From NCBI RefSeq assembly GCF_010122465.1, contig NZ_WLZY01000002.1:137076-201075 (forward strand): a DNA stretch of 64,000 nucleotides, in the 5' to 3' direction. Each line of letters begins with the position of its first letter. The first letter of the stretch is position 1. Below are positions 6,154-10,905 of the stretch, in pieces. The notes under the pieces are model-generated. The model made no database searches and was not told where the DNA came from. It was given only the letters and a program-made list of their open reading frames with translations. Source of the stretch: Phytoactinopolyspora mesophila (lineage in GTDB: Bacteria; Actinomycetota; Actinomycetes; Jiangellales; Jiangellaceae). Position numbers and translations under genes: made by a program.

Positions 6154-6243
6154 CGGTGATCGTCAGTGGGTTCTGGCTGTGGTGAGGTGATCGTCAGTAC
6201 GTTGTGGTCGTGACGTCGCAACCACAACGTACTGACGATCACC
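6154..6243. repeat. palindromic repeat, family 2, copy 2; long hairpin after ppdK
   Basis: A perfect 23-base stem: left arm 6186-6208 (begins GGTGATCGTCAGTACG), right arm 6221-6243, 12-base loop. A further half-arm GGTGATCGTCAGT lies just upstream (6155-6167). It sits 60-150 bases after the ppdK stop and could end its transcript, but there is no U-tract. The arm sequence differs from the other family-2 copies (CGTCAGT in place of CGTGAGC). Confidence 0.8.
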
Positions 6244-6303: not shown

Positions 6304-7053
6304 ATGGAGAATTCCGCTGACGTCGGGGGCACGATGCGCGGTGCTGGGCGGGTAGGTGCGATCGTTGCCGCGCTCGTCGCCCTGCTGGTTTTGCCGGTTC
6401 AGCAGGCCGCCGGGCTCGGTTGCGCGGACGCCGGAGCCGTCGACATCACCGATGCGGTTCACGGCACCCTGTCCGCCGACTCGAAGACGTTGAGTGTCAG
6501 CGTGACCGACAGCTCCTACGTCCTCGCTGCGGTGGGCGTGAGAGGCGGCGGACAGTGGAAGCTGTACGTCGGTGGTCCGTACTCGGGCATGTCGGCTCCG
6601 CCGAATCGCGGTGGGCAGGCCCCGGCGATCAGCGACTGGTTCGCCTGTGGCCTGCGTGCCGACGAGCCGACTCCTACGCCCAGCCCGACCAGGACGCCGC
6701 GCATACCCACTCCGACGAACACAGCGCAGCCCACCGATACCCCGACTACCACCCCGACCGCTACGGACGACCCGACAGAGCAGCCGGACTCCACCCGGAC
6801 GCCCGAGCTGACCGGCACCCCGGAACCCACCGGCGAGCCCTCGGACCCGCCGGGCACGGACCGATCGCCGGAGCCGAGTGTTCCGCCGGACGCGACGCAG
6901 ACCCAGGTGCCCGTACCCACGACGATCCCGCTCGCCGGACCGCCGTCAGCTATTGGCACATCGACGAACAGCGTGCTGATCGTGCTCGGTGCCGGAGGGA
7001 TGACAGCTGGAGGGATAGCGCTGTTCATGTGGCGCCGGCACCGCCATGCCTAG
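6304..7053 (+). CDS. secreted Pro/Thr-stalk protein with C-terminal membrane anchor
   Basis: 249 residues from ATG 6304, or 239 from the second ATG at 6334 (MRGAGRVGAIVAALVALLVL), which gives a cleaner signal peptide. The mature part has a domain of about 85 residues bounded by two cysteines (GLGCAD and WFACGL) with KLYVGGPYSGM. Then comes about 85 residues of proline/threonine/acidic stalk, then a hydrophobic segment (SVLIVLGAGGMTAGGIALF) and an RRHRHA tail. This resembles a sortase substrate in outline, but there is no LPxTG; the nearest sequence is IPLAGPPSAIG. It overlaps the sortase-like gene by 8 bases, so the two are probably partners. Confidence 0.75.
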   Translation: MENSADVGGTMRGAGRVGAIVAALVALLVLPVQQAAGLGCADAGAVDITDAVHGTLSADSKTLSVSVTDSSYVLAAVGVRGGGQWKLYVGGPYSGMSAPPNRGGQAPAISDWFACGLRADEPTPTPSPTRTPRIPTPTNTAQPTDTPTTTPTATDDPTEQPDSTRTPELTGTPEPTGEPSDPPGTDRSPEPSVPPDATQTQVPVPTTIPLAGPPSAIGTSTNSVLIVLGAGGMTAGGIALFMWRRHRHA

Positions 7054-7678
7054 GTGGCTGCCCCGGCATCGGCGGGAGCGTCCGGCGCCGACGGTGTACA
7101 CGCTGCTCGTCGCCGCGGGAATCCTCGTCGTCGGTGCCGTGTGGGCGGTGAGCGTCATGATCGCGTCGGACGGTTCGTCGCCGACGGCGCATCGCGACGC
7201 CGATTCCGGGGAGAACGCCACGACGCCCGGGGGCACGAGGCCAGGAGGGGATGCGCCGTATCACCTGCGGATTCCGCGGTTCGGTGTCCATGCGCCGATG
7301 GTGGAGTCGGTCAGCGACGACAATCGGGTTCTCACGCCGCCGGACGACCCTCTGGTCGCGGGCTGGTGGGGACAAGGCGCCGCACCGGGCGACGACGTGG
7401 GCGCCGTGCTGGTGGTGGGTCATGCCGGAGAACCGGAGGATGCGGTATTCACGGCCGTTCCGTCGATGAGCGATGGTGACCTCATCATGGTGACCGGTTC
7501 AGCGTCGCTGACGTATCGCGTCACCGAGGTGTTCGAGCTGACGTCGGGCGAGCTCGCGGAGCGGGCCGATGAACTGTTCGATCAGGACGGTCCACCTCGG
7601 TTGGTGGTCATCACGTCGGGCGGCTGGGACGATGACGGCGATGAGATCTCCGTCGTCCTCCTGGCCGATCCCATCTGA
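7046..7678 (+). CDS. class E/F sortase-like protein lacking the catalytic cysteine
   Basis: 210 residues: an N-terminal membrane anchor (TVYTLLVAAGILVVGAVWAV), a short linker, then a sortase fold of class E/F type (LRIPRFGVHAPMV, PDDPLVAGWW, VLVVGHAGEP, LVVITSGGWD). The catalytic histidine is in place (His126). The position of the catalytic cysteine in the TC motif is serine (Ser191, codon TCG at 7616-7618). No arginine is present in the last strand DEISVVLLADPI, where the third active-site residue is expected. The family normally cleaves sorting signals on surface proteins. This one may be a pseudoenzyme or serine variant that works with the stalk protein encoded just before it. Confidence 0.8.
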   Translation: MPRWLPRHRRERPAPTVYTLLVAAGILVVGAVWAVSVMIASDGSSPTAHRDADSGENATTPGGTRPGGDAPYHLRIPRFGVHAPMVESVSDDNRVLTPPDDPLVAGWWGQGAAPGDDVGAVLVVGHAGEPEDAVFTAVPSMSDGDLIMVTGSASLTYRVTEVFELTSGELAERADELFDQDGPPRLVVITSGGWDDDGDEISVVLLADPI

Positions 7679-7692
7679 CCTGCACCTTCGCC

Positions 7693-7782
7693 CGGTGATC
7701 GTGAGCGGATTTCTGCTCCCATCGGCCGACCTTCAGGGCGATATGTCCCTTATGTGGAGCAGTAATCCGCTCACGATCACCG
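7693..7782. repeat. palindromic repeat, family 2, copy 3 (between convergent genes)
   Basis: CGGTGATCGTGAGCGGAT (7693-7710) pairs exactly with ATCCGCTCACGATCACCG (7765-7782). A second short stem inside pairs CTGCTCC (7713-7719) with GGAGCAG (7756-7762). It fills the space between the sortase-like gene and the convergently transcribed ramB, ending one base before the ramB stop codon, so it may terminate both transcripts. Confidence 0.85.
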
Positions 7783-7783
7783 A

Positions 7784-9250
7784 TCAGGGGCCCTGGGTGG
7801 AGGCGGTCGCCGAGTGGCGATCCAGGAAGGCGTAGACGTCGGTGTCGTCGACCCCGGGGAAGGTCCCTGGAGGGAGCGCGGCCAGCAGATGAGAGTGAAC
7901 GCGCGCGCTGGGCCAGGAGTGGTCCGCCCACCGCTCGGCCAGGCCGGCCGGGGGGCGGCGGCAGCACGTCGGGTCTGGGCACGTGGAGGTGACCCGATTC
8001 GTGGTCTCTCGCCCCTGGAACCACTTGACGTGGGCATACGGCACGCCCACATCGATGGCGAAGTCGCCGTCCGACGTGCGCTCGACGTGGGTGGTGCACC
8101 AGTACGTGCCGCGGCCCATGTCGGTGTACTGGTAATGCGAGGCGTAACGCTCGGGCGAGGCGAATACGGCGCGTGCGGCCCAGTAGCGGCAGACCAGCTG
8201 ACCCTCGATGGCGCCGGTGACATCGGTGGGAAACGTGACGTCGTCGTTCTCGTACGCCTTGTAGATGATGCCGTCCTCGCCGACGCGCATGAAATGCACC
8301 GGGATCCCCAGATGGTGGGTGGCGAGGTTGGTGAAACGGTGCGCCGCGGTTTCGTAGGACACCGCGAAGGTGTCTCTCAGATCCTCGATAGCCAAGGCCT
8401 TGGCCGCCTTGGCCCGCTGGAGGAAGTCGACGGCGGCGGATTCGGGCATCAGCAGTGCCGCGGCGAAATAGTTCGCTTCGACACGCTGGCGTAAGAAGTC
8501 GGCATAGTTCACCGGCTCCTGGTGATCCAGAGCGAAGTGGCCGAGGGCCTGCAGCACGATGGTGCGCGGATCATGGCTGGCGTGGCTCGGCAGCGGAAGG
8601 TAGATGCGGCGGTTGCGCAGGTCGGTGATGGAGCGGGTGGCACGTGGCAGGTCTGCCGTGCGGTGCAGGGTGAAACCGAGATGTGCGGTGAGATCGTTGA
8701 TGGCGCGCTCGGTGAGCGGGCCGGCCGTGTGCCCGATGGTGGCTGAGAACCCGGCCGCTGTTTTCTCGAGTTCGGTGAAGTAGTTGTCGCGGTCACGCAT
8801 GTGCTGACGCAGCTCCGCGTTCGCCCGGCGGGCTTCTTCCGGCGTAGCGGCTTGCTCGATGGCGCGTCGTTCCAGTTCAGCATGGAGGCCGACCAGCGCT
8901 TCGAGGGCTTCGGTCGGCATCTTGCTGCTGGCATTCACGTGCGGCAGGCCGAGGCCGGCGTACAGCGGGCTGTTCTGGGCGCGCACTAGGGCGATCTCTA
9001 GGGCCGCGCGGTGCGAGGGAGCCTCGGGCTTGATCAGCTCCGCTACCTCGACCCCGAGAGCCACGGCCAGCGACTGGAGCAGGGCCAGGCGCGGTTCGCG
9101 CTTGCCGTTTTCGATCTGCGAGAGCAGAGAGGGCGCGCGGTCGACGGTCGCGGCCAAGGCGCCCAGAGTCAATCCCTTGGCCCGGCGAGCATGCCGGATC
9201 CGCTGGCCCAATGTGACGAGGTCGAGGTCGTCGTGATCGGAAAGCGGCAT
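7784..9250 (-). CDS. ramB: RamB-like XRE-family regulator of acetate/glyoxylate metabolism
   Basis: Transcription factor of the RamB/ScfR type, which in mycobacteria and corynebacteria controls isocitrate lyase and other acetate genes. An N-terminal XRE helix-turn-helix (LGQRIRHARRAKGLTLGALA ... LSQIENGKREPRLALLQSLA) is followed by an IrrE-like region whose metal motif is degenerate (LQALGHFALDH) and a C-terminal domain with cysteines (CPDPTCCRRPPAG). ATG 9250 is chosen because GGGAGAAAG lies directly upstream; an earlier start at 9283 lacks a site. 488 residues. It is divergent from aceA, as in Mycobacterium, supporting the assignment. I could not find a clear RamB box in the 152-base gap. 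Confidence 0.85.
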   Translation of the reverse strand: MPLSDHDDLDLVTLGQRIRHARRAKGLTLGALAATVDRAPSLLSQIENGKREPRLALLQSLAVALGVEVAELIKPEAPSHRAALEIALVRAQNSPLYAGLGLPHVNASSKMPTEALEALVGLHAELERRAIEQAATPEEARRANAELRQHMRDRDNYFTELEKTAAGFSATIGHTAGPLTERAINDLTAHLGFTLHRTADLPRATRSITDLRNRRIYLPLPSHASHDPRTIVLQALGHFALDHQEPVNYADFLRQRVEANYFAAALLMPESAAVDFLQRAKAAKALAIEDLRDTFAVSYETAAHRFTNLATHHLGIPVHFMRVGEDGIIYKAYENDDVTFPTDVTGAIEGQLVCRYWAARAVFASPERYASHYQYTDMGRGTYWCTTHVERTSDGDFAIDVGVPYAHVKWFQGRETTNRVTSTCPDPTCCRRPPAGLAERWADHSWPSARVHSHLLAALPPGTFPGVDDTDVYAFLDRHSATASTQGP

Positions 9251-9402
9251 CTTTCTCCCTGGTGAAGAAATCAAAGAATTCACTCACTATAACCCTGGAA
9301 AGGCCTTCCTGGTGGGGTTCACAGTGTTGCCAATGACATTCTTCAACAGCAAGCCGTAGCCGGCGAGAAGCTGGCGTGCGGCTGGGAGCAAGGAGCACAG
9401 GC

Positions 9403-10781: not shown

Positions 10782-10905
10782 GGTGATCGTGAGCAGGATT
10801 TCGCCCCGCACTCCGGTGATCGTGAGCGCTTCGCGGTCGCTATGGCGACCAGATTCCGCTCACGATCACCGATTGTCAGGGCGCGTTTCCGCTCACGATC
10901 ACCGG
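10782..10905. repeat. compound palindromic repeat, family 2, copy 4
   Basis: Four arms in the order forward, forward, reverse, reverse: GGTGATCGTGAGC (10782-10794), CCGGTGATCGTGAGC (10813-10827), GCTCACGATCACC (10858-10870) and GCTCACGATCACCGG (10891-10905). They can form nested or alternative hairpins. It starts 5 bases after the aceA stop. The 30-base centre has GCTTCGCGGTCGCTATGGCGACC, related by inversion to the repeat after dusB. Confidence 0.85.

Follow-up and report, generated by a model that had tools for sequence, protein, structure and literature searches.

The window, a stretch of 64,000 nucleotides from the genome of Phytoactinopolyspora mesophila, contains a class F-type sortase homologue in which serine occupies the position of the catalytic cysteine, preceded by the gene for a stalk protein whose pre-membrane motif is also altered. 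The explanation preferred here, with belief and doubt about evenly balanced, is that in one lineage a sortase lost the transpeptidase chemistry it exerted on its cognate substrate; what remains would be a folded pseudo-sortase and a stalk, both held in the membrane. Judged from sequence, transpeptidation itself has very probably been lost in this genome, since the Cys-to-Ser change, for which the S. aureus C184S mutant is a precedent, is accompanied by the loss of neighbouring residues. The genome is 6.5 Mb in size, belongs to the Phytoactinopolyspora group of the family Jiangellaceae and has a completeness score of 99.5%. The features of the locus are collected in the table.

Features of the stalk/sortase locus and its flanking genes (positions are those of the window)
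Feature	Positions	Strand	Description
ppdK	3369-6092		gene on one side of the stalk/sortase pair
Stalk gene (presumed former substrate)	6304-7053	+	249 aa; signal segment, head domain, Pro/Thr-rich stalk, C-terminal membrane segment and basic tail
Stalk head domain	6409-6663	+	85 aa, small beta domain
Stalk pre-membrane motif VPVPTTIPLAG	6907-6939	+	altered form of the VP(V)PTxIPAG of the other ten orthologues
Stalk C-terminal membrane segment and basic tail RRHRHA	6973-7050	+	membrane segment itself at 6973-7032
Sortase-fold gene	7046-7678	+	ATG start, 210 aa; class F-type homologue with Ser replacing the catalytic Cys
Sortase N-terminal membrane helix, residues 15-41	7088-7168	+	helix in the AlphaFold2 model; hydrophobic by sequence
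His126 codon (CAT)	7421-7423	+	conserved in all orthologues
beta7/beta8 active-site segment, residues 186-210	7601-7675	+	holds 6 of the 7 private losses
Ser191 codon (TCG)	7616-7618	+	position of the catalytic Cys
ramB-like regulator	7784-9283	minus	other side of the pair, followed by aceA and aceB

The assignment of the protein to the sortases rests on several lines of evidence. It matches the Pfam Sortase model PF04203 with an E-value of 1.6e-11 (44.5 bits against a cut-off of 26.6), and its best NCBIfam match is the class F model NF033748, at 62.2 bits, below that model's cut-off of 166; the protein is thus a divergent class F-type sortase homologue. Its AlphaFold2 model is a sortase barrel with a mean pLDDT of 84, and comparison of residues 68-210 with PDB sortases by VIA gives a Z-score of 15.6, with an rmsd of 2.1 over 125 residues for 7s53. 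His126, which is invariant across the orthologue alignment, and Thr190 are both kept. Residue 191, at the end of beta7, is encoded by TCG, where the relatives have TGC or TGT, Ser202 stands where the N-V-V-V motif of class F sortases, located before the last strand, has Asn, and there is no Arg from residue 191 to the C-terminus. The first-pass annotation, which had proposed a sortase fold with His126 and with Ser191 in place of Cys, is thus borne out by the Pfam match, the structural model and the orthologue alignment.

The replacement of the cysteine is confined to this genome. A search of the genome contigs with a single protein as query gave no match, and an alignment query gave 17 loci; the 22 family genomes yielded 13 orthologues, every one with Cys at position 191. 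Cys is likewise present in all 36 class F sortases parsed from a class-wide sample, in which regular expressions left a quarter to two fifths of the loci unparsed. The Asn of the N-V-V-V motif is equally constant (36/36 and 13/13, respectively), and the three other sortases of the window genome, two of them class E-like (TTCWPR) and one of class F (TCGG), all retain Cys. Ser191 is therefore private to the window genome among the genomes searched, and its combination with the altered stalk motif is known from one genome of the species. A loose parse had given a TS reading at loci L060 and L071, where the matched text was not the sortase strand; a stricter script read Cys at L071 and left L060 unparsed. 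A family-level class of Ser-sortases is thus ruled out, and the suggestion that Ser and the loss of Arg are conserved together with the stalk protein fails for the family, as all 13 homologues collected carry Cys, an outcome that the first-pass annotation had itself named as refuting. The view of the operon as one built to work without transpeptidation falls as well, except as a hypothesis on this one lineage, for the close homologues possess both Cys and the motif; a binding-module role for the sortase fold is possible at most in the window species, and not in the family.

The absence of the active-site Arg expected on beta8 had been taken as a further sign of inactivity. Its absence downstream of residue 191 is correct, yet it adds no evidence: the position in question is R in P. 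endophytica and in most members of the Jiangella-type genus, and is A, T, D and E in P. limicola, P. halotolerans, P. alkaliphila and P. halophila, all of which bear Cys. The sole class F-model match of the P. halophila-type genome is weak (E 4e-19) and is most likely its Cys-bearing orthologue. Two residues ahead of the invariant Asn, Arg occurs in just 11 of the 36 class F sortases, and the last-strand alignments were unclear when the class F Arg position was sought by profile comparison with the class E-like sortases of the genome. As a sign of inactivity the missing Arg is non-diagnostic, given that several Cys-bearing relatives lack it.

The genomic context supports the orthology of these proteins. 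The order ppdK-stalk-sortase-ramB-aceA-aceB is common to the window, P. endophytica, P. limicola, P. halotolerans and P. halophila, and the sortases of these four relatives are therefore positional orthologues. In P. alkaliphila the pair lies on the same contig as ppdK, about 16 kb apart, and a stalk orthologue is found directly upstream of the sortase in those relatives whose contigs extend that far. In the window the end of the stalk gene and the start of the sortase gene share 8 nt (ATGCCTAG), forming a two-gene operon; no sigma-70 promoter or terminator pattern was found near the pair. The surrounding DNA has features of its own. An 88-bp palindromic unit (GGTGATCGTGAGCGG...CCGCTCACGATCACC) is located at positions 7694-7781 and again at about 10782-10903, and a related hairpin occurs at about 6158-6243. 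Its half-site has 123 genome-wide matches with up to 1 mismatch, against 0 for the reversed control, and the unit is a dispersed REP- or MITE-like repeat of intergenic gaps. Among the relatives, the isocitrate lyase gene of P. alkaliphila (G001:C32:300441-301818, L117) was matched in two pieces with one TGA, and is apparently frameshifted or mis-assembled.

The stalk protein has the typical tail of an anchored substrate, with a spacer, a membrane segment and basic residues. The LPXTG_anchor model TIGR01167 scores 14.5 bits on the protein and 18.4 bits in a genome search, around a cut-off of 15.9, and the match covers model positions 6-33 only, leaving out the motif. That the partner has its own membrane segment and basic tail, as the first-pass annotation had stated, agrees with both the sequence and this match. 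The accompanying claim that it lacks an LPxTG-like signal was half right: there is no canonical LPxTG, but the orthologues carry PTxIPAG, of which the window copy is an altered form. PTxIPAG precedes the membrane segment in 10 of the 10 other stalk orthologues read, and PTTIPLAG occurs in the window only. PTxIPAG is a putative cleavage site and likely the sorting motif of the Jiangellaceae sortase/stalk family.

A comparable arrangement is seen among the neighbours of other class F sortases (loci L046-L095 and L002). Most of 26 such neighbours carry P-x-G-x-V-x-[TA]-G-x-G-G, a motif unlike LPxTG, immediately ahead of a membrane segment and basic tail at the C-terminus; Pro is found at -6 in 24 of the 26, and many of them are related Streptomyces-type proteins. 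As a candidate signal for class F sorting, this motif was not found described in the open papers searched. The window family, these class F neighbours and the intact class F pair of the window genome (VPTRIDAG) share a Pro followed by [VIA]-x-[TA]-G before the membrane segment, and because of this similarity the stalk is better regarded as a onetime class F substrate with an altered motif than as a protein that always lacked a signal. The head of the stalk is a small beta domain not described before, which is conserved across Jiangellaceae and bears two conserved cysteines. It is modelled by AlphaFold2 with a pLDDT of 91.7; neither a confident PDB match (best Foldseek E 0.58, best VIA Z 4.0) nor a Pfam match was found for it.

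The changes in the window sortase are concentrated around the active site. Of 36 positions that are invariant in all other orthologues, the window protein breaks 7, and 6 of these fall within residues 189-206 (hypergeometric p 0.0014), namely V189I, C191S, G196D, N202S, V205L and T206L in beta7/beta8. P. alkaliphila, whose branch is of similar length, loses 4 invariant positions, none of them in this interval. On the species topology, taken from ppdK, the sortase-domain branch is 0.68 for the window and 0.40 for its sister P. limicola, and becomes 0.46 and 0.42, respectively, when residues 186-210 are removed. Changes exclusive to the window and to P. limicola stand at 9:1 within residues 186-210 and at 10:9 elsewhere. 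This excess in the segment is modest (Fisher p 0.03 to 0.11 with outgroups from the Phytoactinopolyspora group) and disappears with Jiangella-type outgroups. In P. limicola the sortase domain (L005, L031) clusters with that of the Jiangella type at 80% support, although the flanking genes follow the genus, a placement for which gene exchange or uneven rates are possible reasons. Owing to the outgroup effect and to this clustering, the contrast between the window and P. limicola in the active-site segment is suggestive rather than firm.

None of the 16 invariant positions of the stalk head is broken in the window, and both reading frames are open. The GC content at the third codon position is 80% in the sortase gene and 88% in its last 25 codons, compared to 83% in the flanking genes and about 60% in intergenic DNA. 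Third-position GC, the 8-nt overlap and the open frames point to continuing coding constraint, and it is from this retained constraint alone that a continued function of the pair may be argued.

Under the preferred explanation of a lost transpeptidase chemistry, the ancestral sortase, like the present orthologues, would have cut the neighbouring stalk at PTxIPAG and presumably joined it to the cell wall. In the window lineage the nucleophile Cys191 would then have become Ser, the strand behind residue 191 would have degenerated and the stalk motif would have changed to PTTIPLAG. At present the stalk would likely remain unprocessed, its C-terminal segment keeping it in the membrane, next to a sortase domain that is folded but inactive, the two genes still being in frame and overlapping. 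The sequences themselves show the replacement of Cys by Ser, its confinement to this genome among those searched, the altered motif, the clustering of losses at the active site and the open frames, whereas we infer the past cleavage at IPAG, the loss of activity, the membrane retention and a remaining role, for example the binding of the stalk tail. One extension of this account, which we regard as rather unlikely, holds that the inactive domain may have been kept as a membrane-bound, non-covalent holder of the stalk tail; joint selection for the loss of Cys and of the cleavage motif would then have kept the stalk in the membrane and out of the wall.

The same losses could also mean that the sortase and the stalk motif have simply gone out of use in this lineage, the operon being early in decay and having no present function, which is a real if lesser possibility. 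The locus is dispensable in the family, as 8 of the 22 genomes have no match to it at E 1e-12, and it evolves fast, with about 45-54% identity between species against 78-88% for the neighbouring genes; the losses, moreover, strike those residues on which catalysis depends most. What class F sortases do physiologically is described as unknown, and the deletion of four of them together in Actinoplanes missouriensis produced no phenotype (PMC13251363), so that such a loss may be cheap. Yet decay would have to be reconciled with the preservation of the open frames, the gene overlap and the codon bias, with a sortase domain that is otherwise no faster than that of the sister, and with a fully conserved stalk head. 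It is improbable that a different sortase of the genome now anchors the stalk after a shift of its motif to an LPxTG-like IPLAG, the local sortase having become redundant and died. PTTIPLAG can indeed be read as containing IPLAG, a pentapeptide of the [LI]Px[TA]G type (I/L-P-x-A/T-G), and besides the local enzyme the genome encodes two class E-like sortases and an intact one of class F; the clear anchor proteins listed for this genome, however, nearly all carry LPDTG, with one LARTG, and not IPxAG, and the partner of the intact class F sortase uses VPTRIDAG.

Retention of His126, Thr190 and the barrel might suggest that the protein still works as a transpeptidase or hydrolase, operating through Ser191 and His126. 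This is very improbable, since the Asn that is invariant in class F has also gone, Arg is missing from the vicinity, and S. aureus SrtA carrying the equivalent replacement (C184S) reportedly shows a dramatic fall in activity, with most of it lost (PMC4827206). An error of sequencing or assembly at codon 191, for which the restriction of the change to a single genome might be invoked, is barely credible: TCG is two bases away from TGC, five more invariant positions around it differ too, and the completeness of the genome also argues against it.

In their barrel, N-terminal membrane helix, His and TC-type strand, the class F sortases of the NF033748 type and the Jiangellaceae orthologues resemble the window protein, and they too have a partner directly upstream with a pre-membrane motif and a basic tail; four relatives share the gene neighbourhood as well. 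The window pair departs from them in the changes of Cys to Ser and of the invariant Asn to Ser, and in the altered motif of the partner. The laboratory mutants S. aureus C184S, S. pyogenes C208A and C. perfringens SrtB C232S (5yfk) have had the same residue removed with the fold kept, and according to their structure titles the S. pyogenes C208A forms (8t8g, 7s51) were crystallised with bound sorting peptides. These mutants were engineered, whereas the change in the window is natural, and neighbouring residues and the motif of the partner have been lost along with it. As in pseudoenzymes in general, the fold is kept and a catalytic residue is lost in one lineage; the open literature searched yielded neither a natural sortase pseudoenzyme nor a description of natural sortases lacking Cys. 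With nucleophile and substrate motif both altered within one lineage, and with orthologues that retain Cys at the corresponding genomic place in sister species, the pair offers a clean natural experiment on what class F sortases do.
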